A DNA stretch of 45,078 bases from Nocardioidaceae bacterium (GTDB taxonomy: Bacteria; Actinomycetota; Actinomycetes; Propionibacteriales; Nocardioidaceae), in contig JACCWP010000089.1 of the NCBI GenBank assembly GCA_013697585.1, positions 1-45,078 of the forward strand. Reading direction: 5' to 3'. The notes below the pieces were generated by a model. That model saw only the letters and a list, made by a program, of their open reading frames with translations, ran no database searches and was not told the origin of the DNA. The position numbers and the translations under genes are program-made. Positions 22 through 41,073 of the stretch are shown here, piece after piece (within the stretch, counting starts at the first letter, position 1; every line of letters begins with the position of its first letter).

Positions 22-936
22 GTGACCGATGGGCGCACACTTGGTCCGGACATCGTGATCGCCGGTGCGGCGCGCAGCGGCACCTCCTCGCTCGCTGCCC
101 AGCTCGGCACGCACCCCGATGTGGACCCCGGCAAGGTCAAGGAGCCGAACTACTTCAGCCGCGGCCTCGACAAGGGAGCCCAGTGGTACGACGCCCTCTA
201 TCAGCCTCGCCGCCGGGGCCTGCTCCGACTCGACGCCAGCGTGTCGTACACCTCGCCGCTGCATCCCGAGGCGCTCGATCGGCTCGCTGCGGAATCGCCG
301 TCTGCTTTCGTTGTATATGTCGTCCGCGACCCCATCCAGCGCGCCGTCTCGCATTTCCTGTTCCGCAGGCACTACTTCCACCTCGAGTCGGCTCCCGACT
401 TCGGCACCGCGCTTCGAGGGGGGTCCTACTACGTCGACGGTAGCGACTACTCCCGTTGGCTGACCTTGCTCACCGCGACATTCCCCCCCCAACAGCTGCT
501 GGTCGTACCGTTCGAGGTGGTCACAGCCGCGGTCCTCGAGGTCACGGCCACGATCCATGCTGAACTGAAACTCGACGCCTCGACGGCCGCTGCAGAGCAG
601 GCAGCGCACCACCGCAACCCAGTCGTCGAGTACCGCACCGAGGGCATGCGCCGCGCGGCCAGCCTGCTGCGGCAGAGCAGCCTGTACCCCCGGCTCCGTT
701 CGGCCGTGGGAGGGACCAGACTGCGCCGAATCAGGGGGGTCGTGACTCGCCGAGCCGCGGTGCCGACCGCCGAAGAGGCAATCGCGTCGTGCGCAGCGAG
801 CGAGCTCGAGCAGCTTCGCGAGCTGCAGGTCCGCTCGGGCGCGGCCGTACTAGCCCATCTGGACGAACAAGACCAGCGGCTCGGATTGTCCTGGCGCGAT
901 CGATCGTTTGCTCGGGCTCCCGACGACCATCATTGA
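22..936 (+). CDS. Sulfotransferase family protein (PAPS-dependent type)
   Basis: N-terminal P-loop-like 5'-PSB motif IVIAGAARSGTSSLAAQL, KEPNYFSR, and 3'-PB-like VVYVVRDPIQRAVSHF. Confidence 0.88.
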   Translation: MTDGRTLGPDIVIAGAARSGTSSLAAQLGTHPDVDPGKVKEPNYFSRGLDKGAQWYDALYQPRRRGLLRLDASVSYTSPLHPEALDRLAAESPSAFVVYVVRDPIQRAVSHFLFRRHYFHLESAPDFGTALRGGSYYVDGSDYSRWLTLLTATFPPQQLLVVPFEVVTAAVLEVTATIHAELKLDASTAAAEQAAHHRNPVVEYRTEGMRRAASLLRQSSLYPRLRSAVGGTRLRRIRGVVTRRAAVPTAEEAIASCAASELEQLRELQVRSGAAVLAHLDEQDQRLGLSWRDRSFARAPDDHH

Positions 937-998
937 CCAATTGGCCCCAGCCACGCTCGGTACGACCCCCCATCGACGCAAAGGATGAACGACAGCAC

Positions 999-1796
999 AT
1001 GGCACCCTCACCCGACCACGTCCAGGAACCGTGGGCCCGAAGCGACGCGCCGCTGCTCGCGGGGGGGCGGCGGGTCGCCCAGGCTGTGCTGTCGCGCAAC
1101 ACGCGCTTCGAGCTCTACTTTAGGATGCTCGACACACCAATCATCTCCGAGTTGTACACCCTCGGCCGCGGCCGACTTCGGCACCGTCGTGTCAAGGCGT
1201 CGACTCGGGTCGTCATGGAAGGATTCCCCTCGTCGGGAAATACCTTCGCACGGCAAGCATTCCTGCTCGCGAACCCGCAGGTACATCCCGAAGACATTTG
1301 CAGTCACACGCACGCACCACGGGTCGCTGTCAAGGCAGTCGGAAGGGGCCTCCCGTGCATCGTGCTCGCACGCGACCCGCGCGACGCGGTGGCCTCCACC
1401 GTGCAGCGCTTCACCGGCATCCACCTGCTGAGTGCCTTCTCCTACTACGAGCGCTATTACCGCAAGCTGATGCCGATCAAGGATCGGTTCGTCGTGGCAC
1501 CCTTTCCCACCCTCATCGACGACTTTGGCTCAATCTTGCGACGGTGCAGCGACATGTACGGCGTCGACCTCACCGGGACACAGACCGACGTCTCGAACGA
1601 CGACGTGCTGCAGAGCATCGAGACCCGCACCCTGCGACGGCACGACGGCCGAGTTCCCGAGGAACGAGTATCGCGGCCCTCCAGCAAGAGACTCAAGGCC
1701 GATGAGTTCCTGAAGCACATCACCACTGACGAGCAGCGCGCCCTAGACCGAGCCCTCCTGGTCTTTGCGGAGTTCACAGCAGGGACCCTCACCTGA
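999..1796 (+). CDS. Sulfotransferase-fold P-loop protein (divergent)
   Basis: EGFPSSGNTFARQAF plus IVLARDPRDAVASTVQRF; start refined to ATG at 999 inside the 789-1796 ORF. Confidence 0.7.
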   Translation: MAPSPDHVQEPWARSDAPLLAGGRRVAQAVLSRNTRFELYFRMLDTPIISELYTLGRGRLRHRRVKASTRVVMEGFPSSGNTFARQAFLLANPQVHPEDICSHTHAPRVAVKAVGRGLPCIVLARDPRDAVASTVQRFTGIHLLSAFSYYERYYRKLMPIKDRFVVAPFPTLIDDFGSILRRCSDMYGVDLTGTQTDVSNDDVLQSIETRTLRRHDGRVPEERVSRPSSKRLKADEFLKHITTDEQRALDRALLVFAEFTAGTLT

Positions 1797-1823
1797 CCAA
1801 CCCTCACGATCGGCGCTGCTCCG

Positions 1824-3182
1824 TCAACCTGACGTCTGCCGCAGCAGGCCGATCCGCGGTCGGAGGGTCGGATGGGTCCACATCTGCATCCGCCTGCGGG
1901 TCACAACCCACAGCGTCAGGTAGAGGCAGACTGTCAGGGCGGCCGCACTCGCGCCGAGTCCGACCGCCCCGAAGGTATTGGCCGCCAACACGCCGGCCAA
2001 CACCCTGACCGCGAGAACTATCCATTGGATGGTGGCCACGACGCTCTCGTGTCGCGACATCGTCAGCGCGGTGCCGGACATCCCGGAGAGGACATGGCTC
2101 ATGCTGCCCACCGTGAGCAGCGCCAAGATCGGTGCCGCCTCGGCGAAGCCCTCCCCAAAGACGGCGCTCAGCACCGTTTCCGGCAGAATCAGCATCGGTA
2201 TCCACAGGACGGCGGTCACCACGGTCGCCATCGTGGCCCCGGTGCGCAGCAACTTCTCGAGCCGGGCGTTGTCGCTGTCGACCAGGCGTGAGACGACGGG
2301 CGAGAACACGACCCCCAACGAGACGAGGGGGATCGCCAGCAGCACCGACAACCGCTGGGCAGCGCTGAACAGGGAGGCGTCGAGACTGGTCAGGATGAGC
2401 GCTGCCAGCCAGATCTCCACCGTGCCGTTGAGATAACCGCCGAGCAGGTTGCTGGCGAAGCGCCAGTGCCTGCCAACCACACGCCGCAGGTCGCGAAACA
2501 CCGGGCCACGCCCGCTGACGTGCGACCACACGGGCAACATCCGCCGCCAGGCCACCGTCACCGGGATGGCGAGGCCGACAGCCAGCGCGGCCAGCGCCCC
2601 GGGCAGGCCCCACTCCGGCCGGAACAGCAGCACCGCGCCCAACAACAGCCCCTGGCACGCCGCGGCAAGCGCTCCACCAGACCGGCCCTCCAGAAGGCTG
2701 GCGAAACGTACCTGACCGAACCCACGCAGGTAGTTCGCCCACAGCTTTTGCAGCCCGCCGAACCACACCAGGACACCCATGCCGATGGCGATCGTCCATC
2801 TGGTCGCCGAGTCGACACCGTCGACCACGGCGAACGTGACCGCTGCCGTGACGAGGCTGGTAGACGGCAACAGCACCAGCGCCACGGCGCGCACGCCGCG
2901 ACGCAGCTCGCGCAATCCCTCGTCGTCGCCGGGCTCCAGTCGGGCTGCCTCGCGCAGACCGCCCCGGTGCACTCCCATCAGACCAAGTTGTCCGAGCAGC
3001 GTGGACACCGTAGCCGCCAGCACGAAGTAGCCGAAGGAGTCGTCGAGGAGGCGAGCCGCAAAGGCATTGACCGCGAGATAACCCAGGACTGCTCCGCCAT
3101 ACGAGACGGCGAACCACCCGATGGCGCCGCTCAGGGCGACCTGACCACGGCGGCCCTTCAGGGACGGTAGCGACGCCCTCAT
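1824..3182 (-). CDS. Wzx-like polysaccharide flippase / oligosaccharide transporter
   Basis: About 12-14 hydrophobic segments in a 452 aa protein resembling the polysaccharide biosynthesis (MATE/MOP) family; located in a glycan locus. Confidence 0.8.
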   Translation of the reverse strand: MRASLPSLKGRRGQVALSGAIGWFAVSYGGAVLGYLAVNAFAARLLDDSFGYFVLAATVSTLLGQLGLMGVHRGGLREAARLEPGDDEGLRELRRGVRAVALVLLPSTSLVTAAVTFAVVDGVDSATRWTIAIGMGVLVWFGGLQKLWANYLRGFGQVRFASLLEGRSGGALAAACQGLLLGAVLLFRPEWGLPGALAALAVGLAIPVTVAWRRMLPVWSHVSGRGPVFRDLRRVVGRHWRFASNLLGGYLNGTVEIWLAALILTSLDASLFSAAQRLSVLLAIPLVSLGVVFSPVVSRLVDSDNARLEKLLRTGATMATVVTAVLWIPMLILPETVLSAVFGEGFAEAAPILALLTVGSMSHVLSGMSGTALTMSRHESVVATIQWIVLAVRVLAGVLAANTFGAVGLGASAAALTVCLYLTLWVVTRRRMQMWTHPTLRPRIGLLRQTSG

Positions 3183-3192
3183 CTCCCGCGCC

Positions 3193-4473
3193 TCAGCGTC
3201 GTGCCTCCGTGAGGACCGGTGCCGTCTCCCGCCCCGCGACCTGCGTGCGGACGTGGGTCACGATCCCCATCGCAAAGGCCAGCGCGACCCACTCGATCGG
3301 TGGGATCAGGCCACCACCAGACGTTCCCATCCGGACCAGCGGCAGCGCGAGTGCCGCGGCGACCGGCACCAGCCACTCGGGCTGTTGTGGCAGGCTGATG
3401 ACGAGCCGCACGAACAGGGCAACCACGATCACGAGCATGGCCAGTGCGGGCAGCGCGGTAAAGATGCCTCCCCGCAGCATCGAGTCGACCACGAAGTTGT
3501 GCGAGCTGACTCCCCCCGTCTCGAAGCCACCGGTCAACCAGTGATCCGGAAGAGCCTCGAAGGCGGCGAAGTAGTTCTCGGCACGGGCGTCGTAACCGGT
3601 GGTGTCCGTGGTGAACCGGTTCCAGATCACCAGGCCCACGCCCGAGAAGGCCAGCCCAGCCGCCGCGACGATCGTGCCGGCGAGCCCCGCGACCTGGCCG
3701 GACGTCAAGCCACCGCGGCGCACGGAGCGGCTGAGCGCCAGTGCCGGCCAGACCAGGGCGGCGATGAGCACCGACCTGCTTAGCGACAGCGTGAGCAGGA
3801 CGACACCGGTGATCATCGCCATGCGGTAGGCAACATGCTGTGCCCGGGTGGTGACGGACGGACCGAAGCGCATGGCCCAGGTGGAGATCATCATCGACAG
3901 CAGGAGCGAGCCGAAGATCTCGTGTCGAAGGTTGCCCTTGACCATCTCCTCGTCAAGCCCGAAGCCCGCGAAGCTGGTCTTGAAGACCTCCTTCTGGAAC
4001 AGCTCGGGGTCGGCGGAGGCAATGGTGCGGCCGAGCACGGCGGCGGGGTTGACGCCGTTGACCAGCATGGCAACGGAGAATCCGATAACGACGGATGCGC
4101 ACGCCACCGGGGCGACCCAGCGCAGCGCGGTCGCCAGCCGCGGTTCCTCAGCGCTGGCGCCGCGGAAGAAGCAGGTCGACAAGGCGACAAAGACAGCCAG
4201 GTAGATCAGTTCCTGTACCGAGCCCCTGGGGAGCCTCCCGTTGTAGAGGTCCACAGCCGCCCAGGCGAGCAACCAGTAGAGGCTCATCACGACGAACAGC
4301 GCAGCCGTCCGGAGGACCGGCGCATGGGCTCGCAGTCGGTAGCAGGACAAGACGACCGCGGCGAAGCCCACCAGGGCGACCTGGTGCAACCGACCGGTGC
4401 CGAGCGGCGTGGAGCCGAGCCCGAACCACTGCAACGGCAGCAGCGCGAACAGCACGATCATGGGCACTCTCAC
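3193..4473 (-). CDS. Wzy/O-antigen ligase-like polytopic membrane protein
   Basis: Polytopic 426 aa protein; SHNFVVDSMLRGGIF motif typical of O-antigen ligase/polymerase loops; locus context. Confidence 0.75.
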   Translation of the reverse strand: MRVPMIVLFALLPLQWFGLGSTPLGTGRLHQVALVGFAAVVLSCYRLRAHAPVLRTAALFVVMSLYWLLAWAAVDLYNGRLPRGSVQELIYLAVFVALSTCFFRGASAEEPRLATALRWVAPVACASVVIGFSVAMLVNGVNPAAVLGRTIASADPELFQKEVFKTSFAGFGLDEEMVKGNLRHEIFGSLLLSMMISTWAMRFGPSVTTRAQHVAYRMAMITGVVLLTLSLSRSVLIAALVWPALALSRSVRRGGLTSGQVAGLAGTIVAAAGLAFSGVGLVIWNRFTTDTTGYDARAENYFAAFEALPDHWLTGGFETGGVSSHNFVVDSMLRGGIFTALPALAMLVIVVALFVRLVISLPQQPEWLVPVAAALALPLVRMGTSGGGLIPPIEWVALAFAMGIVTHVRTQVAGRETAPVLTEARR

Positions 4474-5354
4474 GACGACGTCCAGCCCCAGCGCGCCTGC
4501 AGGTCCTGGCCCATCATCTCTTCCAGGCGCTCGATCTCGGGTCGCAGGCGTCCGCGCAGGTAGGCGGCGTCCTCCTCGCGGGGAGTGGGCCGGTCGTCCA
4601 GCTCCGTATACAGCAAGCGCTGCACCGCAGACGACCGCTTGACGCGACCGATGAGGGTGGTGGAACCGTGCTCGCGGGCCCAGTTGGCTCCCCGCTTGGC
4701 CGCCGAGGCCAGGTGCCGCGACCGGGCTCGGCTGGCAGGCAGCCGCGCGGCGAGCAGCTGGTCCTCGAGCCGCATCGGCTCGATGCGCAAGAAGTTCAGG
4801 ACGCCGTCGATGAAGCGCTGGGGATCCTCGACCAGGTCGTCGAAGAGTCCGAAGTGGATCTGGGAGCGGCCGAAGCAGTCGAGGTAGCGATCCAGCAAGG
4901 TGGCATAGCGCGAGTGCTCGAGCATGCCCGGACGGGTCTCCAGGGCCTCGCGGAAGGTTCCGTCGAAGACGCCGTGCTTGCGCATGTAGAGGTAGCCGGA
5001 GAACCCGCGGGCGACGGGGTCGCGAATGGTCACCATCAGGCGAACGTCGGGCCCGAGCAGGTCGTGCATGCGCTGCGGGGCCTCAGGGCAGGACAGGTAC
5101 TCCTGGCACACCTCCCCCACGACCGCGTGCTCGGGGCCGGCGTGCTTGAAGTGCTCGGCGTACCAGTCCGCGCCACGTTCGTAGTAGCGGTCGAAGAAGT
5201 ACAGGTCCTTGGCATCGGTCATGAAGACCTGGGAGTGGACCATCAGCACCTCGTGCAGCCAGGTGGAGCCCGCCTTGCTGGGCCCGATGTAGACGAAGTT
5301 GGGCAGGCGCGCTTGTCCGTGCTGTCTCCAGGAGACGTGGTCGCTGCTGGTCAC
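4470..5354 (-). CDS. Sulfotransferase domain protein
   Basis: FVYIGPSKAGSTWLHEVLMVH, DLYFFDRYYERGADWYAEHF, MVTIRDPVARGFSGYLY; 4-bp overlap with the downstream 3193-4473 gene. Confidence 0.9.
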   Translation of the reverse strand: MTSSDHVSWRQHGQARLPNFVYIGPSKAGSTWLHEVLMVHSQVFMTDAKDLYFFDRYYERGADWYAEHFKHAGPEHAVVGEVCQEYLSCPEAPQRMHDLLGPDVRLMVTIRDPVARGFSGYLYMRKHGVFDGTFREALETRPGMLEHSRYATLLDRYLDCFGRSQIHFGLFDDLVEDPQRFIDGVLNFLRIEPMRLEDQLLAARLPASRARSRHLASAAKRGANWAREHGSTTLIGRVKRSSAVQRLLYTELDDRPTPREEDAAYLRGRLRPEIERLEEMMGQDLQARWGWTSS

Positions 5355-5381
5355 GGTGACATCCCTGTCAGTTGCCGGGGG

Positions 5382-6332
5382 CTACGGCGTCGTGGTGTCG
5401 TCGGCCGCGCCCCGTGCTCGCTCGAGCCAGGGAGGGAGGTCGCCGGACACAAGTGAGGATAGTCTCATGAGGTCGCCGGTGAAGGCGTCCGCGAGATGCG
5501 CTCGGACATCCGGCGGCACGCCGCCCCGGCGCAGGCTCGAGCGGCGGATGCGCTCGCGGAACCGAAAGCTTGTCGTGCCCTTGATTGCGCGGCGCAGGGA
5601 CTCGTTGCGGGTCGCGGCCGCGATCGCCTTCTGCACCGCGGGCAGCCGCGGGGTGCCCGAGACGTTCACCCGGGGGACACCGACGGCCTCCTGGGTTTCC
5701 GGAGGCACCTCCAGCCAGCGAAGGACACTGCTCACGGTGCCGGCATAGTCGGTCTCGAGGTCGTCGTGGAACCAGACGCCCACGCGGTCGCGTCCGAGGC
5801 CCTGTTGCAACGTCGCCACGGCGTCGGCGTAGTGGCTCATCGCCCGGTAGTGCCAGAGGTGGTGCCAGTTCTCGGCGATCCGTCTCGGCTCATCGACCAG
5901 AGCCTGCACGGCGTCCTCGTACGGCTCGAAGCCCCGCGCACGCAGATAGGACCAGCTGGAGTAGGCCCGCTCCACCGGTTCGCGCAAGATGAGAACCACG
6001 CGCATCCGCGGGTTGACCCGCTTGATCTCGTCGACCGCGCGCTCGGCGTAGTAGAGCGTGGAGACCGAGCCATCGCCGAGCGCGAGGAAGTCGTGCTGGC
6101 GGGGGAAGAGGTCGAGGTAGTCGCTGCGGTTGGTCACCGCGACCCGGTTGATGGTGGCCGCGTCGCCGGGTCCGCGAAAGTCGGCAAGCTGTCCGTGCAA
6201 CGCGAAGTAGTGCGGCTCCTTGGGCTGGGTGACGAAGACGCGCGGGTGCGTCCGAAGGCCCTCCACGAGGCCGGTCGTCCCCGACCGGCCCGCCCCTGCG
6301 ACCAGGAAGGTGGGTCCTGCGACGGTCGTCAT
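5382..6332 (-). CDS. Sulfotransferase family protein
   Basis: MTTVAGPTFLVAGAGRSGTTGLVEGL, KEPHYFALHG, VVLILREPVERAYSSWSYL; start refined to 6332, overlapping the upstream GT stop. Confidence 0.9.
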   Translation of the reverse strand: MTTVAGPTFLVAGAGRSGTTGLVEGLRTHPRVFVTQPKEPHYFALHGQLADFRGPGDAATINRVAVTNRSDYLDLFPRQHDFLALGDGSVSTLYYAERAVDEIKRVNPRMRVVLILREPVERAYSSWSYLRARGFEPYEDAVQALVDEPRRIAENWHHLWHYRAMSHYADAVATLQQGLGRDRVGVWFHDDLETDYAGTVSSVLRWLEVPPETQEAVGVPRVNVSGTPRLPAVQKAIAAATRNESLRRAIKGTTSFRFRERIRRSSLRRGGVPPDVRAHLADAFTGDLMRLSSLVSGDLPPWLERARGAADDTTTP

Positions 6333-7480
6333 CGAACGGCCTCCACGGCAGCTTGGTAGGCAGTGTCGAGCCGGTCCACGACGAGCCGGGGCGTGAAGGT
6401 CCCCACCACCCGGTCGCGACCGGCGGCGCCGAGCGCTCTGGCCCGGTCGGGCTGCGCCAGCAGCTCGCCCGTGGCAGCAAGCAGACCGGCAGTGTCGCCG
6501 AGCGAGACGACGACCCCGCCGGCCGGCCACGGTCCGTCGGTGACAGCCATCGCCGTGCCGTTGACCGCGGCAGCGACCACGGGCCGGCCGCACGCCATCG
6601 CCTCGGCCACCACGACCGCGACGGTCTCGTAGCGCGAGGCCAGGACGAGCACGTCGCTTGCCCACAAGAAGGGCCGGACGTCGGCCTGATCGCCGACCCA
6701 GCGCACGGTTTTGTCCCACTGCTGCGGCGCGAGCGCGCGCAGGGGTGCGGGGTCTCCTGGGCCCACCAGGACCAGCTCGGCGTCCGGCAGCGGCTGGCGC
6801 TCCCACTCGGCGACGAGCAGGTCTTGACCCTTCTGGCGGGCCAACCGGCCCAGGCACAGCACCATTCGCGAGGCGGTGGCGCCGGTCTCGGCTCGCCAGC
6901 GGTCGCGCTCGGCGTCGGGTACCAGGTGGAAGCGCTCGACATCGATCGGCACCCCCAAGGCGTGCCCGGGCGTGCGTACGCCGTGGCGCCTGCCCTGGTC
7001 GATCTCGTCGTCGCAGTTGCCCACCAGGACCTGGGTACGCCTGGCTGCCAGCCGCTCCCACAGCTGTGCGAGGGTGCGCGCGGTCGCGCCGCTGAAGGCG
7101 TCGAACGACCAGGCGTGCGGTTGATAGACCACCGGCACCGCACCGGTCAACGACAGCAGCGGCAGCCGTCCGAGGAAGCCGGCGAACGCCGAGTGCAGAT
7201 GGACCACGTCGGGCCGCGTCTGGCGGACCGCGGCGCGCAGCTCACCCAGTGCCCGCCGCCAGGTGGCCGGCCGTCCCCGTTCGATGCCCCACTCCAGCCG
7301 CCGCACGGACGGGTCCGGGAGGTTCGGGAAGGCCGGCGGGGCCAGCAGCGTCACCTCGTGCCCGCGGGCGGCCTGCTCGGACGTGAAGTCGCGCAGCAGG
7401 CTCACCACGCCGCCCCAGGCGACCTCACTCACGTGAAGCACGCGCACCGGGGAGCCTCGCTTCGGCGGAACGATTGCCAC
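6329..7480 (-). CDS. Glycosyltransferase family 4 (GT-B)
   Basis: VLHVSEVAWGGVVSLLRDF, PDVVHLHSAFAGFLGRL, VVAEAMACGRPVVAAAVNGT. Confidence 0.9.
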   Translation of the reverse strand: MAIVPPKRGSPVRVLHVSEVAWGGVVSLLRDFTSEQAARGHEVTLLAPPAFPNLPDPSVRRLEWGIERGRPATWRRALGELRAAVRQTRPDVVHLHSAFAGFLGRLPLLSLTGAVPVVYQPHAWSFDAFSGATARTLAQLWERLAARRTQVLVGNCDDEIDQGRRHGVRTPGHALGVPIDVERFHLVPDAERDRWRAETGATASRMVLCLGRLARQKGQDLLVAEWERQPLPDAELVLVGPGDPAPLRALAPQQWDKTVRWVGDQADVRPFLWASDVLVLASRYETVAVVVAEAMACGRPVVAAAVNGTAMAVTDGPWPAGGVVVSLGDTAGLLAATGELLAQPDRARALGAAGRDRVVGTFTPRLVVDRLDTAYQAAVEAVR

Positions 7481-7488
7481 GCAGCGGA

Positions 7489-8898
7489 CTAGGCCGCGCC
7501 GTCGCGGCGCAGGACGGCATTCACCGTACGTGCCACGATCGACAGGTCACCGGCGAGGGTCCAGTTGTCGACGTAGTCGAGGTCGAGCCGCACGGTCTCG
7601 TTCCAGCTCAGCCGGGATCGCCCGCTCACCTGCCACAAGCCGGTCATGCCCGGCCGGAGGCTGAGCCGACGACGGATCCACGCGTCATACTGGTCGGTCT
7701 CGCGCGGCAGGGCGGGGCGAGGGCCGACCAGAGACATGTCGCCCTTGAGCACGTTGACCAGCTGCGGCAGCTCGTCCAGCGACGATCGCCGCAGCCACCG
7801 ACCCATGCGCGTGACGCGCGGGTCGTGCATCAGCTTGAACAGCGGGCCCGCACCCTCGTTGTGCTTCTCGAGCTCGGCGCGGCGCTCCTCCGCATCGGTG
7901 CACATGGTGCGGAACTTGTACATGATGAACGGTCGTCCGACCCGACCGGCTCGGACCTGACGGAAGATTGCCGGCCCCGGGCTGTCGTTGCGCACGAGCA
8001 CCATCAACGTCGTGAGCAGTGGCGCGAGCAGCACGAGCATGATTGCGGCGACGGTCCGGTCGAAGGCCGACTTTATGAGCACGGCCAGCACGGGGCGCCG
8101 GGTAGGGCGCACCGACAGCAGCAGCCGGCGACCGAGCAGTCGTGGCTCGATCCGCCGTGGGACAGCACCGTGCACCTCGGCCGCCACGGCGAGCTCGACG
8201 TCGGAGTCCTCGAGGGCCCAGCTCAGCCGCCGCACGTCGTAGGCGGTCAGGACCGGCCCCGGCGCGACGACGACCTGCGGGATCTCCTGCGCCCGGGCGA
8301 GCAACGCAACATCCTCGAGGCCACCGACGACGGGGACGCCGCCGATCTGGGTCGGCTGGTCGTCGGCGTCGTCGTCCGGCTCGGCCAGGCAGATGCCGGC
8401 CAGCTGGATCTGGGGACGCGTCGCCCACTGGGTCACCAGGTGTGAGACCGCGACCCGGTCGCCGACCAGCAGGGTGGTGCGAGCAGGGGGGATCAGCTGT
8501 CGCACCCCTCGTACGACGACGGGCAGCACCAGCACAGCCGCCACCGACCACAGGCCCAGGCGCACCTCCGGCACGGTCAGCCACCCCAAGGCGACCAGCG
8601 TGAGCAGCAGCCCACCAGCGAGGGCCAACGTCCTGGCGACCGGGCGAAGCGACGAGTCTCGCTCGTAGGCGGGCAACGCCATGACCTCGGTCAGGAACAG
8701 GGTGCCGGACAGTGCCGGCACCAGCGCGAGCGTCCCGTACTCCCACAACAGCACGGTCGCCGCGGTCGCGACGGCGACGACCGCCGCGGTCTGCACCGGC
8801 ACGCGGCGAAAGCGACGGACGCGCTTGCTGATCGGCTCGGCAGGCAGGTCAACAGGTGCGAGAGCACCTGGCGCCAACACACTGTCGCTGAGAGTCAT
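7489..8898 (-). CDS. Polyprenyl-phosphate sugar phosphotransferase (WcaJ/CpsE-like initiating enzyme)
   Basis: C-terminal FRQVRAGRVGRPFIMYKFRTM..SLDELPQLVNVLKGDMSLVGPRP..RPGMTGLWQVSGRS; N-terminal TM helices; ATG at 8898 preceded by GGAG. Confidence 0.93.
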   Translation of the reverse strand: MTLSDSVLAPGALAPVDLPAEPISKRVRRFRRVPVQTAAVVAVATAATVLLWEYGTLALVPALSGTLFLTEVMALPAYERDSSLRPVARTLALAGGLLLTLVALGWLTVPEVRLGLWSVAAVLVLPVVVRGVRQLIPPARTTLLVGDRVAVSHLVTQWATRPQIQLAGICLAEPDDDADDQPTQIGGVPVVGGLEDVALLARAQEIPQVVVAPGPVLTAYDVRRLSWALEDSDVELAVAAEVHGAVPRRIEPRLLGRRLLLSVRPTRRPVLAVLIKSAFDRTVAAIMLVLLAPLLTTLMVLVRNDSPGPAIFRQVRAGRVGRPFIMYKFRTMCTDAEERRAELEKHNEGAGPLFKLMHDPRVTRMGRWLRRSSLDELPQLVNVLKGDMSLVGPRPALPRETDQYDAWIRRRLSLRPGMTGLWQVSGRSRLSWNETVRLDLDYVDNWTLAGDLSIVARTVNAVLRRDGAA

Positions 8899-9038
8899 TG
8901 TGTGTCTCCGCATGAACGCGTTCTAGCCCTCTCTGACGTGCGACCATGTGAGGAGCACGAAGTCAATCACCCGCGCGGCGATCCGTCAGCGAAAGGCCAA
9001 CAAAAGCAGCCCGAAATGGACACAAGGTCACCGTGCCA

Positions 9039-9638
9039 TCACCCGTTGAACACATTTTGTGCCTGCTCCAGCCCCGAGTGTAGAAGACTGTCAACCGCGT
9101 CGGCCGCGCGGGTGACCAGGTCGGGGAGCTCGCGGCGCTCGGCGGCCGACCACGCGGACAGCACGAAGTCGGCAGGATCCTGGCTTCCGGGCGGCCTGCC
9201 GATGCCCACCCGCAGCCTGCTGAAGTCGCCACTGCGCAGCGATGTCCGCATCGAGCGCACGCCGTTGTGGCCGTTGTCGCCGCCCCCCCGCTTGAGCCGC
9301 AACCGACCGAACGGCAGGTCGATCTCGTCGTGCGCGACGACCACATGGTCCGTGGGGACCCGAAGGTATGCCGCCACCGAAGCCACCGACCCGCCGCTCT
9401 CGTTCATGAAGGTACGCGGCCGCAGGAACACGACCCGCGGGGCGTCGGCATCGCCGGGGGTCCCCAGCCTGGCCTCCACGGTGTCGGCACGTCCCGTCCG
9501 GTGCCGCCGCCACGCCGTCGCTGACGAGTCGCGGGCGCGGTCGGCCAGCTCCTCGACGACGAGCCGACCGACGTTGTGCCGGGTCGCTGCGTAAGCCGAG
9601 CCAGGATTGCCCAGCCCGACCACCAACCACGTCGCCAC
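9039..9638 (-). CDS. pth: Peptidyl-tRNA hydrolase
   Basis: WLVVGLGNPGSAYAATRHNVG, VAHDEIDLPFGRLRLKRGGGDNGHNGVRSM. Confidence 0.97.
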   Translation of the reverse strand: MATWLVVGLGNPGSAYAATRHNVGRLVVEELADRARDSSATAWRRHRTGRADTVEARLGTPGDADAPRVVFLRPRTFMNESGGSVASVAAYLRVPTDHVVVAHDEIDLPFGRLRLKRGGGDNGHNGVRSMRTSLRSGDFSRLRVGIGRPPGSQDPADFVLSAWSAAERRELPDLVTRAADAVDSLLHSGLEQAQNVFNG

Positions 9639-10719: not shown

Positions 10720-11202
10720 CTACAGCGGACAGCCCAGGTTGTTGTCGTTGTCCAGCCGCGTGGCCAGGTCGAGCATGGTGGCGCGGTCGTCGCTGTCATA
10801 TGCCGCGTTGACGGTCGGGACGAGCGCTGGGCGACCGTCGAGGCCCGGCCGGTTGCGCCGCCACGGATAGCCGACGCCCTCGTGCGCGGCGTTCAGGTAC
10901 GCGGCGGTGGCGGCGCGAGCCAGGATGCGCTCGGCGCCGGAGACGCCGGGACCGCCCCGCAGGCCCAGGGCTTCGAGCATGGTGACCCCCGCGACTGAGC
11001 TCATGAGGACGGCGGAGTACTTGGTGGCAAGCAGATCGGTGGGCTGGGCCTCCTCCCAGTTGTCGGTGTGGTTCTTCCAGTAGCCGGGGGTGCAGCCCTC
11101 GTTGCCGATGTTGCTTGCCTGTGCCGGGGCACCGAACCCGACCAGGGTCACGGCGACAGCGGCCACTGCGAGGATGGTCCCGAGAACTTTGCGCAGCTGC
11201 AC
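10720..11202 (-). CDS. Secreted GCTPGYWKNH-motif protein of unknown function
   Basis: Signal peptide MQLRKVLGTILAVAAVAVTLVGFGAPAQA followed by SNIGNEGCTPGYWKNHTDNW; C-terminal DNDNNLGCPL. Confidence 0.8.
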   Translation of the reverse strand: MQLRKVLGTILAVAAVAVTLVGFGAPAQASNIGNEGCTPGYWKNHTDNWEEAQPTDLLATKYSAVLMSSVAGVTMLEALGLRGGPGVSGAERILARAATAAYLNAAHEGVGYPWRRNRPGLDGRPALVPTVNAAYDSDDRATMLDLATRLDNDNNLGCPL

Positions 11203-14192: not shown

Positions 14193-15206
14193 ATGCCCCC
14201 TCCCACCACCGCCCCCGTGCTCGATGCACCTGCCGGCAGCGCGACCACCGAGACGGTGGCCGCGGTGCCGCAGGCGAGCCCGGGCGAGCCGGCCACGTAC
14301 CCGTCGCGCGGTGAGCAGATCGCCCTCGCGGTGTTCATCGTGGTGCCGTTCCTCGCGATCGTGGCGGCCGTGCCGGTGGCGTGGGGCGGCTGGCTGGGCT
14401 GGAGCGATGTCGTCATCGCCTCCGTCATGTACGTGGTCAGCGGGCTCGGCATCACCGTCGGCTTCCACCGGCTGTTCACCCACAAGGCGTTCAAGCCGAA
14501 CCGCGGCGTCAAGATCGCCCTGGCGATCGCCGGCACCCTGGCCGTCCAGGGCCCCCTGATCCGCTGGGTCGCCGACCACCGCAAGCACCACAAGTTCTCC
14601 GACCGCGACGGGGACCCGCACTCGCCGTGGCGCTACGGCGAGTCCGTCCCGGGACTGCTCAAGGGCCTGGCGTACGCCCACATGGGGTGGCTGTTCGACG
14701 CCGAGCAGACGCCGCACCGCAAGTACGCCCCCGACCTGATGAAGGACCCGGACCTGCTCCGGATCTCACGGCAGTTCCTGCCATGGGTGGCCGTGTCGCT
14801 GATCGCGCCCGCCGTCGTCGGGGGTCTGTGGACGATGTCCTGGCAGGGCGCGCTCACTGCCTTCTTCTGGGGCACCCTGGTGCGCATCGCGCTGCTGCAC
14901 CACGTGACCTGGGCGATCAACTCGATCTGCCACGCCGTCGGCGAGCAGCCGTTTCGCAGCCGGGACCGCTCGGGCAACGTGTGGTGGCTCGCGATCCCGA
15001 GCTTTGGGGAGTCGTGGCACAACCTGCACCACGCAGACCCGACCTGCGCCCGTCACGGCGTGCTCCCGGGACAGGTCGACCTCTCCGCCCGGACCATCTG
15101 GATCCTCGAGAAGCTCGGCTGGGTAAGCGACGTCCGCTGGCCGGTGGCCGAGCGACTCGCCTCACGACGTGCTGCGGCCGACCCGGTCCACGGGCCGGCG
15201 GCGTGA
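14193..15206 (+). CDS. Acyl-CoA / fatty acid desaturase (membrane di-iron)
   Basis: Histidine boxes HRLFTH, HRKHHK, HNLHH; RBS gagga before ATG. Confidence 0.95.
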   Translation: MPPPTTAPVLDAPAGSATTETVAAVPQASPGEPATYPSRGEQIALAVFIVVPFLAIVAAVPVAWGGWLGWSDVVIASVMYVVSGLGITVGFHRLFTHKAFKPNRGVKIALAIAGTLAVQGPLIRWVADHRKHHKFSDRDGDPHSPWRYGESVPGLLKGLAYAHMGWLFDAEQTPHRKYAPDLMKDPDLLRISRQFLPWVAVSLIAPAVVGGLWTMSWQGALTAFFWGTLVRIALLHHVTWAINSICHAVGEQPFRSRDRSGNVWWLAIPSFGESWHNLHHADPTCARHGVLPGQVDLSARTIWILEKLGWVSDVRWPVAERLASRRAAADPVHGPAA

Positions 15207-24615: not shown

Positions 24616-26970
24616 TCAACCCGCAGGTGCCAGCGGCCGGTCCGCGACCGAGGACAGGACCCGTACGGACGGCCGCGGCGCCTCGTCGGCAAGCGTGGCC
24701 AGCGTTCGCGCCAACGGCTCCGGGCGGGCGAAAAGGAATCCCTGGGCAAGCCCGGCCTCGCAGTGCTCGGTGACGTGCGCGAGCTGCGACTCACGCTCGA
24801 TTCCCTCGACCACGACGTCCAGGCCCAGCCCACTGCCCATGAGCACCATGGAGTGCAGCAGGTCGCAGGCTCGACTGTCCGAATCCACCGAGGTGACGAA
24901 CGATCGATCGATCTTGAGGATGCGTACGGGCAGGCGCTGGAGGTAGCCGATGGACGAGAAGCCCACGCCGAAGTCGTCGATCGCAAACCGGACGTCCTCG
25001 GCCGCAAGCTCCTCCATCGTCGCCAGCGCTTGCCCGCCGTCGCCCACGAAGTCGTGCTCGGTCACCTCGATGACCAGATTGAGGTCACGCATCGCCGCGC
25101 GGGTGCGGCGGACAACACCAGCAAAGGAGGGGGAACGCAGCTGTCGAGCTGTGGCGTTGACGGCAACCGTGATCGACCGCCCTGCAGCCGCGCGAATGGC
25201 TGGCGCATCGTCAGCCACGAGATCCAGCACAAGCTCACCGAGCGCCACGATGAGCCCGGTCTCCTCGGCCACCGGGATGAAGACATCTGGGGCGATCAAT
25301 TGGCCGTCGCATCGCCAGCGCACCAAGGCTTCCAGCCCCAGCACCTCGCCGCTGAGTATCGCGACGACCGGCTGGTAGTGCACCTCGAATTCGCCGGCGG
25401 CGATGGCGCGGCGCAGCCGGTCCACCAGCTCGATCCGGTGCAGCCGGTCGTCGAGCAAGGAGACGTGGTAGATCTCCTGCCGGTCCTTGCCCTGGGACTT
25501 GGCGTGGTACATCGCCATGTCGGCGTTGCGCAGCAGCGCCTCGGCGCTCGCCCCCGGCTCGCCATGCGCGACACCGATGCTCGTCGTCACCGCCACCGGG
25601 TGGCTCACCACCACGATCGCCGGCCGAAGTGCGGCCAGGATGCGCTCACCCGTGGCTTGGACGGAAGCGAACTCCACGTCCTCGAGCACTATGGCGAACT
25701 CGTCACCGCCCAGGCGTGCCACCGTGTCGCCATCGCGAACGCAGGAGACGATCCTCCGGCCGACCTCCTGGAGCAGCACGTCTCCGGCGGCGTGACCGAA
25801 CCGGTCGTTGACCTGCTTGAAGCCGTCGAGATCACAAAAGAGGACGGCCAGCCGGCCGCCGGTGGCCCCGTCGGCCGCGAGCGCCTGCTCGACCCGCTCG
25901 AGCAGGCGGGTGCGGTTGGCCAACCCAGTCAGCGCGTCGAAGCGCGCCAGGTGGGACAGCTCGTCGACCAGCCGCAGCCGGGAGAACGTGTCTTCGGCGA
26001 CCGCGACTAGAGCCTGCAACGCCCGCCCGTCCGTCCCCACGGTGGATCGGGCCCCGACCCTTGCCGGTGCGGTGACCCATAGGCCGCGCTCGCCCGGCAC
26101 CACGACGGCACCGATCTCGCCGGCTCCAGGGGGTTGCTCGCGCAGTGCGACCCTGCGATCTCGCAGCAGGTCACGCGCAGCGTCGCGGACCATGGCGAGA
26201 GCGGCGGCCCGGTCGTGGACCGTCTGCGCCCGCTGGGCGGCGGCGAACAGCACGTGCAGGCGACGAGCATGCTCCTCGCCGCGGGAGCGGGCCCGCGCAG
26301 CGAAGAGGATGGTGGCGAGCGGCGCGGCTAGCAGCAGCATCACCCACAGCGGCTGGTTGCGAAACACCAGCGCTGCAAGGTAGCCGAGCGAGTCGATGGC
26401 GACGAAGACAACCAGGCCGCCGAGCACACCAGGTTGGGTCAGCTCAGTGCGGATGCTGGTGCCGTCTTCCAGCGCCACCGAGACCGCCGAGATGACCCAG
26501 TCAGCGCCGAAGTACGCGGCGCAGGCCAGGCCCACGAGCAGCAGCTCTCTCGGGCTGTTGTCGGGTGCGCGCTGCCCCGACCAGAGCACACCGACGGCCA
26601 CCGCCCCGCACAAGGTGGTGAGCCCGCTGTTGAACGCCTTGGCCCGTAGGCGCTTTGACGACAGCAACTGGGCCGCCAGGGACCCGATTGTCCACACGGC
26701 CAGGGACAGGTACGGATCGACCACACAGGCAAGGAAGATCAGCACGCACGACTCGAACCCGATCTCGATGCCGCCCTCACGGCTCATCGGCCATGGGAAC
26801 CGCGCCATGACAGCGACCACGACGATCCCGAGGAGCGCGGCCACGGAGAATCGTTGCGGGTCGTCGACCAGCACGAGGATCGCCCATGCCCCGGGAAGCA
26901 GGCCCGCCACTGCCACGAACGCATCGAAGCCGTTGCTCGCAGCGGGTGGCGAGCTCTCGCCGTCACCCAT
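24616..26970 (-). CDS. Membrane-bound GGDEF-EAL cyclic-di-GMP protein
   Basis: N-terminal multi-TM region; RDGDTVARLGGDEFAIVLE (RxxD I-site and GGDEF); LGLEALVRW EAL motif. Confidence 0.95.
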   Translation of the reverse strand: MGDGESSPPAASNGFDAFVAVAGLLPGAWAILVLVDDPQRFSVAALLGIVVVAVMARFPWPMSREGGIEIGFESCVLIFLACVVDPYLSLAVWTIGSLAAQLLSSKRLRAKAFNSGLTTLCGAVAVGVLWSGQRAPDNSPRELLLVGLACAAYFGADWVISAVSVALEDGTSIRTELTQPGVLGGLVVFVAIDSLGYLAALVFRNQPLWVMLLLAAPLATILFAARARSRGEEHARRLHVLFAAAQRAQTVHDRAAALAMVRDAARDLLRDRRVALREQPPGAGEIGAVVVPGERGLWVTAPARVGARSTVGTDGRALQALVAVAEDTFSRLRLVDELSHLARFDALTGLANRTRLLERVEQALAADGATGGRLAVLFCDLDGFKQVNDRFGHAAGDVLLQEVGRRIVSCVRDGDTVARLGGDEFAIVLEDVEFASVQATGERILAALRPAIVVVSHPVAVTTSIGVAHGEPGASAEALLRNADMAMYHAKSQGKDRQEIYHVSLLDDRLHRIELVDRLRRAIAAGEFEVHYQPVVAILSGEVLGLEALVRWRCDGQLIAPDVFIPVAEETGLIVALGELVLDLVADDAPAIRAAAGRSITVAVNATARQLRSPSFAGVVRRTRAAMRDLNLVIEVTEHDFVGDGGQALATMEELAAEDVRFAIDDFGVGFSSIGYLQRLPVRILKIDRSFVTSVDSDSRACDLLHSMVLMGSGLGLDVVVEGIERESQLAHVTEHCEAGLAQGFLFARPEPLARTLATLADEAPRPSVRVLSSVADRPLAPAG

Positions 26971-38511: not shown

Positions 38512-41073
38512 CTACGCCTCGGGGACGAGCAGCAGCACATCCTCGCCCGTGGCGTCGACCGCCTCTGCGCTGAACGGCCAGGGCACCGTGTCGCCCGCGG
38601 CCCACCGCTCGGTCTGGTCGTCGTAGTGGTCGGAGAAGGCGTGCCCGGACGCGCCACCCACGACGATCCAGCGAGCGGCACCGAGGTCGTCGAGAGGCAC
38701 GACCATCCGCATCGACGCGACGGCGGTTGCGGCAAACCCCTCGTCGGCCGACCAGGAGGAGGCGTCGACCGCCCCGCTGCCGCCGCTCAACGGATAGGGA
38801 CCACGGTTGAACAACGCCTCCACCGCAGCGACCCCCGACTCGCCGAGCGTCTGGTTGACCAGCGTGAGGTGGTGGATCGCCCCCCAGGTCCAGTCGTCAG
38901 GGTCCTGTGCCTGCAGCCGGGTCAGGTCGTCGCGGGCCTGCTCCATTGCCGCGACGAGCACGTCGTCGCGGTCCTCGCGTACACCGTCGGTGGACACGTC
39001 GTCCCACCACTTCGAGCCCGGCTCGTCCAGCAGCAGCCGCACCACCTCGCACCACCGCTCGTCGCCCTGCGGCCAGGCCGCCTTCGGCAGCTGGTCGGTG
39101 AACGTGAGCAACAACAGGTTTCGCCAGACCACGTTGAAGTACGCCGCCGCGCCGGAGTCGGCGGGTTGGGTCCCGTCCCAGCCGACCAGCAGCTCCTGCC
39201 CCTGCCGGTGGTACGGGGTGCTGAGCGGTTGCCTGAGCAGTGCCGGCACGAGAGCCTCGGCCATCGGGTGCAGGGAGTCGGTCTGCAACGCGGCGGAGGC
39301 CTCGACCGTCCAGTCGTCGCGCGTGGCAAGCAGGTCGACGATGCGTTGCGACCGATAGCCGTACGCGGTGTCCGCACCGAGTTCGAAGCGATACCCGTCG
39401 GGGTCGACCACGGCCTGGTTCGCGGTGACGATGACTCCGCCCGGCGGGTCGAGCGTCCACGGCAGCTGACGGAACGGCACGCTGCCGCTCCACCCGTACC
39501 GCGCGTCCCAGCCCGGCACCGGCCACCTGCCGTCACCGAGCCGTCGGACGGGGATGGTGCCAGGCGCCTGGTAACCGATGTGGCCGTCGACGTCGGCGTA
39601 GACGAGGTTCTGTGCCGGCACCTCGAAGAGCCGGGCGGCGGCACGGAAGTCGTCGAACGACCGGGACAGGTCGAGACCGAACACCGCATCCATGGTTCGG
39701 CCGGGCTCGAGCGCGGTCCACTGCAACGCCACGGCGTAGTCCTCGCCGCCGGCCGGACGCGCCACGGGCGCCTCGTCGGCGACTCGAGCGGCATCGTCGT
39801 CGATGTCCGACAGGAGCGGCCCGTGCCGAGTGGCACGGACGGTCCGGGTCACCGGTTCGTCCTCGCCCGCGACCTCGAACTCCTCCTCGCGCACGCTCAT
39901 CTCGACCCAGCGACCGTCGAACAGATACCTGTTGCCGTCGACCTGCTCGACGTAGAGGTCGGCCACGTCCGCGTACATGGACGTGAGTCCCCACGCGACC
40001 CGGTCGTTGTGACCGACCACGACACCCGGCAGGCCGGAGAACGTCGTCCCCGCGACATCGAACGGGCACTCGGCGGTCAGCTCGCGGCAGTGCAGACCCA
40101 TCTGCTCCCAGACGCCGGGCATGGCAGGCGCGAGGTGGGGATCATTGGCCAGGATCGGGGCACCGCTGGCGGTGTGCTCACCAGAGATGACCCAGGAGTT
40201 GCTGCCGATCCCGTCGCCGGTGCCCAGCAGGGTCGGCACCTGTGCGTCGACCTTGGCTGCCGCGGCCAGGTCGGTGCCGAGCCCGCCCGCGATCGCGGCT
40301 CGCACGGCGGGCGCCAGCGGCGGTCGTGCGGCTGCTGACGAGGGCTCTGCGGAAGGGTCGAAGCGCCCGGCCACAACGGCGCCCGGCTCGAGAATCGGCC
40401 GGTGCTCCTCGGTGGGGTAGTCGGGGTAGAGCTCGCCGATCGCCCCCTGTCCCACCGAGGCCGCGGCCAGCGTTCGGTCGATCTCGTCGCTCACGTTGCT
40501 GCGCAGGTCCCACGCCAGTGCCTTGAGCCAGGCCAACGAGTCGGTGGGCGACCAGGGCTCCGGGACGTAGTCGGGGCCGGTGACGCCCAGGACGGCGTAC
40601 TCCAAGGACAGCTCGGCAGGGGCTCGGTCCTCGACGTAGGCGTTGACGCCGTCGGCATAGGCCTGCAGGTATGTCCGGGAGGACGAGTCCAGCAACGCAA
40701 GCTCCTGCTCGGCCACCTCGTACCACCCGAGCGACCGTACGTAGACGTCGGTGTCGAGACCGCTCGAGCCCACGAGCTCGGCCAACCGGCCCTGGGTCAC
40801 GTGCCGGCGGAAGTCCATCTCGAAGAACCGGTCCTGGGCATGAACGAAGCCCTGGGTGAAGAACAGGTCCTCGGCTGTGTCGGCATAGATCTGCGGGATC
40901 CCGTAGTCGTCGCGGACGACCTCGGCAGCACGCTCCAGTCCGGCGACGACCAGCTCGCCGTCGACCTGCGGGAACGACCGGCGCGCGGTCCACCCGCCCC
41001 AGGCCACGGCCGCGACGAGCAGCACCGCGATGCCGCCGGCGACCCACACGGTGATCCTGCCGGCGCGACCCAC
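38512..41073 (-). CDS. Penicillin acylase family (Ntn hydrolase) protein, N-terminally membrane anchored
   Basis: DDYGIPQIYADTAEDLFFTQGFVHAQDRFFEMDFRRHVTQGRLAE, GIGSNSWVISGEHTASGAPILANDPHL. Confidence 0.95.
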   Translation of the reverse strand: MGRAGRITVWVAGGIAVLLVAAVAWGGWTARRSFPQVDGELVVAGLERAAEVVRDDYGIPQIYADTAEDLFFTQGFVHAQDRFFEMDFRRHVTQGRLAELVGSSGLDTDVYVRSLGWYEVAEQELALLDSSSRTYLQAYADGVNAYVEDRAPAELSLEYAVLGVTGPDYVPEPWSPTDSLAWLKALAWDLRSNVSDEIDRTLAAASVGQGAIGELYPDYPTEEHRPILEPGAVVAGRFDPSAEPSSAAARPPLAPAVRAAIAGGLGTDLAAAAKVDAQVPTLLGTGDGIGSNSWVISGEHTASGAPILANDPHLAPAMPGVWEQMGLHCRELTAECPFDVAGTTFSGLPGVVVGHNDRVAWGLTSMYADVADLYVEQVDGNRYLFDGRWVEMSVREEEFEVAGEDEPVTRTVRATRHGPLLSDIDDDAARVADEAPVARPAGGEDYAVALQWTALEPGRTMDAVFGLDLSRSFDDFRAAARLFEVPAQNLVYADVDGHIGYQAPGTIPVRRLGDGRWPVPGWDARYGWSGSVPFRQLPWTLDPPGGVIVTANQAVVDPDGYRFELGADTAYGYRSQRIVDLLATRDDWTVEASAALQTDSLHPMAEALVPALLRQPLSTPYHRQGQELLVGWDGTQPADSGAAAYFNVVWRNLLLLTFTDQLPKAAWPQGDERWCEVVRLLLDEPGSKWWDDVSTDGVREDRDDVLVAAMEQARDDLTRLQAQDPDDWTWGAIHHLTLVNQTLGESGVAAVEALFNRGPYPLSGGSGAVDASSWSADEGFAATAVASMRMVVPLDDLGAARWIVVGGASGHAFSDHYDDQTERWAAGDTVPWPFSAEAVDATGEDVLLLVPEA

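Follow-up and report, generated by a model that had tools for sequence, protein, structure and literature searches.

A sulfotransferase-rich, probably Wzx/Wzy-type locus between pth and mfd in a Nocardioidaceae genome, predicted to make a sulfated cell-surface polysaccharide

A cluster of sulfotransferase, sugar transferase, flippase and polymerase-like genes in a Nocardioidaceae bacterium probably forms the right-hand half of a Wzx/Wzy-type locus situated in the pth-mfd interval, with a sulfated cell-surface polysaccharide as its predicted product. The stretch of DNA analysed (the window, 45,078 nucleotides) is the entire contig C189 of a MAG in 299 contigs, and its left end is the end of the assembly contig. 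A sulfated surface-polysaccharide locus had been proposed in a first-pass annotation of the window, and this is still the best reading now that a further sulfotransferase and a Wzz protein have been found leftwards, PAPS genes elsewhere in the genome, and PAPS motifs in the clear sulfotransferases. The reading is built on observed gene content, gene order, folds, motifs and conservation.

All eight annotated genes are present as open reading frames with intact frames (Table 1). The initiating transferase, GT4 glycosyltransferase and flippase named in the annotation each score above their family cut-offs. The six minus-strand genes had also been described as tightly packed with ATGA-type overlaps, and this holds for two of the five junctions, GT4/STa (ATGA) and STb/P0004 (GTGA), whereas the other three are gaps of 8, 27 and 10 nt. 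The flippase P0003 is taken from its context to be a Wzx rather than a MurJ.

Table 1. Genes of the glycan locus in the window and its right-hand boundary.
Feature	Coordinates	Strand	Evidence
P0001, sulfotransferase STc	22..936	+	Sulfotransfer_3 1.2e-13 and Sulfotransfer_1 1.9e-6, both above cut-off; PDB heparan-sulfate 3-O-sulfotransferase relatives; 50-51% orthologues in three related loci
P0002, divergent sulfotransferase-fold protein	999..1796	+	Sulfotransfer_1 below cut-off; model matches sulfotransferases; basic residue of phosphosulfate loop not conserved
P0003, MOP-superfamily flippase, Wzx-like	1824..3182	-	PF03023 33.8 bits, cut-off 27.4; 46-61% orthologues in related glycan loci
P0004, Wzy/WaaL-fold polymerase or ligase	3193..4473	-	No Pfam match; model matches WaaL 7tpg
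P0005, sulfotransferase STb	4470..5354	-	Above cut-off for Sulfotransfer_3 and Sulfotransfer_1; related to 3rnl and heparan 3-OST in the PDB; GTGA overlap with P0004
P0006, sulfotransferase STa	5382..6332	-	Sulfotransfer_3 and _1 above cut-off; 3rnl E 1.4e-33; 47-79% orthologues in family
P0007, GT4 glycosyltransferase	6329..7480	-	Pfam GT4 domains above cut-off; ATGA overlap with STa
P0008, initiating polyprenyl-phosphate sugar transferase	7489..8913	-	PF02397 5e-65; TIGR03025 341.6 bits, cut-off 295.6
pth, right-hand core-gene boundary of island	9039..9638	-	Sequence and gene order pth-rplY-prsA-glmU; present in 59/61 family genomes

To the right of the glycan genes the contig continues with pth, rplY, prsA and glmU. 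Between rplY and prsA (10720-11202, minus strand) lies the gene of a small protein whose start resembles a signal peptide and which contains a GCTPGYWKNH motif; it gave no Pfam match. The window also encodes a fatty-acid desaturase family protein (14217-15206, plus strand), a GGDEF-EAL cyclic-di-GMP protein (24616-26970, minus strand), which could bear on control of a surface polymer, and a penicillin-amidase family protein of 853 amino acids (38512-41073, minus strand).

Four sulfotransferase-fold proteins had been claimed for the window. Tested against PF00685 and PF13469 at the curated Pfam cut-offs, P0001 (Sulfotransfer_3, 52 bits, cut-off 27), P0005 (42 bits) and P0006 (44 bits) are above threshold. 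Placement of at least three of the four in sulfotransferase families by HMM had been set beforehand as the test of the claim, which therefore survives; an NCBIfam search of these proteins gave no real match. In the PDB, P0001 and P0005 match heparan sulfate 3-O-sulfotransferases and 3rnl, and 3rnl is the best match of P0006; these relationships are distant, come from sequence and do not imply the acceptor. The proposed check of the PAPS pocket gave both a 5'-phosphosulfate loop and an R[DE]PxxRxxS (3'-phosphate) motif in all three proteins, and in a fourth sulfotransferase on contig C131 (see below). A sequence check for an N-terminal membrane segment found none in the sulfotransferases; P0001 has a single hydrophobic stretch, away from its N-terminus.

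P0002, a divergent protein, is the fourth of the set. It scores 14.7 bits to Sulfotransfer_1, below the cut-off of 22, and a profile search of PDB sequences was dropped as a means of placing it, having yielded just a weak match to StaL (E 0.39). In a Foldseek search of the PDB with its AlphaFold model (pLDDT 84), ranks 1-48 are all sulfotransferases (best E 1.1e-5, probability 1.00), and on the strength of this model P0002 is therefore assigned as a divergent sulfotransferase-fold protein, with TM-scores that are low (query-normalised, mostly 0.38-0.46). Homologues occur in ten of 200 family genomes, this one counted, and there is a 50% identical paralogue on C131. P0002 keeps RDPxxAxxS. Most of its relatives have RSGNT in the loop, whereas the two copies in this genome have SSGNT (P0002) and SSAST, which makes it uncertain whether P0002 is a working sulfotransferase, a claim that would rest on the fold match.

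P0004 has no Pfam match. It had been called a Wzy/ligase-like protein, and its model (pLDDT 72) agrees: the WaaL O-antigen ligase (7tpg) is the sole match at E <= 0.001 (E 5e-5, probability 1.00). The fold does not separate polymerase from ligase. The protein has conserved SLSRS and SSHNF motifs and could be a polymerase, though a ligase could also fit.

The locus had been expected to continue leftwards, and it appears to do so on contig C131. This contig starts with a truncated sulfotransferase gene (3-782) and a Wzz/BY-kinase gene (TIGR01007, 139.9 bits, cut-off 108), whose membership of the locus hangs on the contig join. Further on are a CysQ-like phosphatase, other genes, a second flippase (59% identical to P0003), a PF04464 (CDP-glycerol-transferase-like) protein with 109 bits, an IspD-family protein, G6PDH and the P0002-family copy, followed by mfd, mazG and eno. 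Comparison of the ends of C131 and C189 found no overlapping bases, so direct sequence overlap had to be set aside as proof and the join is one that we infer. Two observations argue for it. The order from mfd to pth is intact in relatives, as in G057, where mfd, a flippase, Wzz, a sulfotransferase, STa, CysQ, the initiating transferase, pth, rplY and prsA follow one another on a single contig. In addition, the first bases of the window, ahead of P0001, read SGWENGR* in frame 2, which resembles the C-termini of orthologues of the C131 sulfotransferase (LGRDFEWEARYP* in locus L109). The left end of C189 therefore almost certainly continues on C131.

With this join the pth-mfd interval would span about 26 kb and hold four clear sulfotransferases and two divergent sulfotransferase-fold genes besides a single GT4 and a single initiating transferase, so that sulfotransferases outnumber sugar transferases. 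The genome has about 11 sulfotransferase genes in 2.94 Mb; four of HMM grade lie within these 26 kb, three of them inside the window, and this clustering is far above chance. Also within the interval, between both halves of the glycan genes, are a secreted glycerophosphodiesterase-like gene, a DUF1800-DUF1501 pair and a PHP-like protein (L018, 4683-8414 and 8472-10196).

PAPS synthesis genes, suggested as something to look for, are found outside the window, with CysD, CysN and an APS kinase domain (TIGR00455, above cut-off) all encoded on contig C209. In CysH (contig C158) the motifs CC...CxxC and ECGIH are found. They are typical of APS reductases with an iron-sulfur centre, and by sequence CysH therefore looks like an APS reductase. 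Sulfate would then be assimilated from APS, leaving APS kinase and PAPS free for sulfation. The CysQ-like gene scores below the CysQ equivalog cut-off and occupies the pth-mfd interval even in relatives lacking glycan genes. As a core gene of the interval it was ruled out as a specific sign of sulfation and adds little, though it fits removal of PAP.

Two other glycan loci are present in this genome. One (L020, contig C130) has NTP-transferase-like, glycerol-phosphate-dehydrogenase-like, TarF-like, glycosyltransferase and sulfotransferase genes. The other (L023/L024, contig C75) has glycosyltransferases, a second Wzy-like protein (about 25% identical to P0004), ABC exporter-like and Wzz/kinase-like genes and several sulfotransferases.

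A P0006-like match (E <= 0.001) is found in 45 of 61 family genomes, with identities of 47-79% setting apart nine loci from eight relatives. The 4-nt overlap between GT4 and STa recurs in eight of these nine loci, the exception being G057, where no GT4 adjoins STa. The gene set recurs, whole or in part, in G009, G031, G050, G032 and G057, and it adjoins pth in G051, G035 and G015. We also surveyed the mfd-facing side of pth, with a sulfotransferase profile search, in 36 relatives that were not picked for their sulfotransferases. Thirteen gave a match; one (G029) was excluded, its sulfotransferase lying beyond mfd, which leaves 12 of 36 as far as the sequence extends, since mfd is not reached in all. 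In other relatives pth-cysQ-mfd or pth-mfd are closely joined and no glycan genes were found there (for example G012, G019 and G032). Glycan islands of varying content thus recur in the pth-mfd interval. Adjoining sulfotransferases in relatives are kinase/phosphotransferase-like proteins (L108, 11097-12350; L109, 3190-4395; GDWVPWNM...WDWEH) with no Pfam match; the wps-1 cluster discussed below also has a protein-kinase-like protein, WpsI.

Across the phylum, P0006-like matches at E <= 1e-20 occur in 35 of 397 sampled genomes. Many of the loci fetched have matches to an initiating transferase, GT4, flippase or Wzz, and in L194, a locus from a distant relative belonging to another family, the initiating transferase is followed by GT4 and two sulfotransferases, as it is here. 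STa-like genes are thus found in glycan loci of other families too. The first-pass annotation had called sulfated surface glycans rarely well described in actinobacteria outside mycobacterial sulfolipids, and this has to be tempered: Sulfotransfer_3 is present in 82 of 199 sampled Actinomycetota genomes, so sulfotransferases as such are not rare in the phylum, and a Wzx/Wzy cluster with a predicted sulfated EPS has already been published for Actinoplanes missouriensis (PMC13390465).

Substrates, the order of steps and the sulfated product are deduced from these observations, as follows. P0008 would load the first sugar phosphate onto undecaprenyl phosphate and the GT4 P0007 would add the next sugar. 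The soluble cytosolic sulfotransferases, P0006 (probably translationally coupled to the GT4) and then P0005, P0001 and the C131 enzyme, would sulfate the lipid-linked unit with PAPS as donor. The flippase P0003 would turn the unit outward, P0004 would polymerise it, and the C131 Wzz/BY-kinase would set the chain length. CysD, CysN and the APS kinase would provide PAPS, and PAP could be cleared by the CysQ-like phosphatase. PAPS is cytosolic. This, together with sulfotransferases that have no N-terminal membrane segment and the conserved GT4-STa coupling, favours sulfation of the lipid-linked unit in the cytosol, before flipping.

Components of a polysaccharide locus are present in the form of the PF02397/TIGR03025 transferase, the MOP flippase and, via the join, the chain-length regulator/BY-kinase. 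Features of a sulfated-EPS cluster are the sulfotransferases within a Wzx/Wzy cluster, both in the window operon and in relatives, and a PAPS supply in the genome. Counting against this reading, the interval has a single glycosyltransferase, a low number for a polysaccharide; others may be encoded outside it, in the C75 and C130 loci. Four or more sulfotransferases set against a single glycosyltransferase and a single initiating transferase predict a short-repeat, densely sulfated polymer, unless glycosyltransferases of those two loci contribute.

The same genes could instead make a sulfated wall polymer of the teichoic-acid type rather than a free or capsular polysaccharide, with P0004 as a ligase, or with the PF04464 protein adding glycerol- or ribitol-phosphate and the IspD-like enzyme making the CDP-polyol. 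We think this rather unlikely, but several observations point towards it. The PF04464 protein, the IspD-family protein and the second flippase occur together in the C131 interval, the PF04464-IspD-G6PDH trio is also beside the sulfotransferase locus in G032, and G050 has an IspD and SDR fusion with a PF04464-like protein. The C130 locus likewise combines glycerol-phosphate-dehydrogenase-like, TarF-like and sulfotransferase genes, and sulfate and glycerol phosphate are found together on the disaccharide repeat of the Cobetia capsule (PMC11766843). However, the IspD-like protein scores 153 bits to IspD against 72 bits to ribitol-phosphate cytidylyltransferase and may simply be the IspD of this genome, several orthologous loci have no PF04464 match as far as they are sequenced, and the Wzz/BY-kinase points to Wzy-type export. 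Of similarly low probability is a bolder form of the sulfated-polysaccharide reading: a heparin-like, very densely sulfated short-repeat actinobacterial surface polymer, possibly with polyol phosphate, made at a family-wide sulfated-glycan site and involving a new divergent sulfotransferase family (P0002).

It is also conceivable, if very improbable, that the sulfotransferases act on a glycolipid, a protein or a small molecule and are merely near a glycan locus. The Sulfotransfer_1 and Sulfotransfer_3 families act on many acceptors, and P0001 and P0002, encoded on the other strand, have a lower GC3 (0.79-0.80 against 0.85-0.91). The GT4/STa overlap, here and in eight of nine related loci, and the STa-like genes in glycan loci of other families speak against such unconnected targets. 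Variation of the interval among relatives, some of which have pth-cysQ-mfd closely joined, and the P0002 copies without the basic loop residue common to most of their relatives would fit a decaying or laterally acquired island with partly inactive sulfotransferase genes. We give this scarcely any credence, as the eight frames in the window are intact and both PAPS motifs are kept in the clear sulfotransferases.

If a sulfated polysaccharide is the product, this locus, the related loci at a constant chromosomal position and the sulfotransferases in glycan loci of other actinobacterial families suggest that the trait is far more widespread in Actinomycetota. The conserved GT4-sulfotransferase pair is a defined enzyme couple for testing, and such loci could help to explain sulfated glycans that have been measured in sludge biofilms and have no known producer (PMC10483923).

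The locus is of a kind that is already known, as synechan and as predicted for wps-1, and is distinct in gene make-up. The synechan xss cluster of Synechocystis sp. PCC 6803, for which sulfate in the product has been measured, is likewise of the Wzx/Wzy type and encodes a polysaccharide co-polymerase along with sulfotransferases of distinct subfamilies (PMC8205485). It differs in having eight glycosyltransferases, two sulfotransferases and Gram-negative export with an OPX protein; the present locus, from a Gram-positive lineage, combines at least four sulfotransferases with one glycosyltransferase and one initiating transferase. The wps-1 cluster of Actinoplanes missouriensis (2026) is a closer parallel in lineage, being an actinobacterial Wzx/Wzy/Wzz cluster with an O-antigen-ligase-like polymerase and a predicted sulfated EPS (PMC13390465). 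Its two sulfotransferases, of different families, and an adjacent ATP-sulfurylase/APS-kinase-family gene are needed for normal sporangia (PMC13390465). Compared by gene make-up rather than by sulfotransferase sequence, wps-1 has GT2, GT26, GH26 and two sulfotransferases, whereas here PF02397 and GT4 are found. Both reports present sulfated polysaccharides among bacteria as exclusive, or nearly so, to cyanobacteria (PMC8205485, PMC13390465). This is contradicted by the capsule of Cobetia marina KMM 1449, whose solved structure is a disaccharide repeat with sulfate and glycerol phosphate (PMC11766843). The Cobetia system resembles ours, for which sulfation is predicted, in combining a sulfated polysaccharide with PAPS genes, cysQ and a sulfotransferase, and differs in its ABC-transporter (kps) export and in belonging to the Gammaproteobacteria (PMC11766843).
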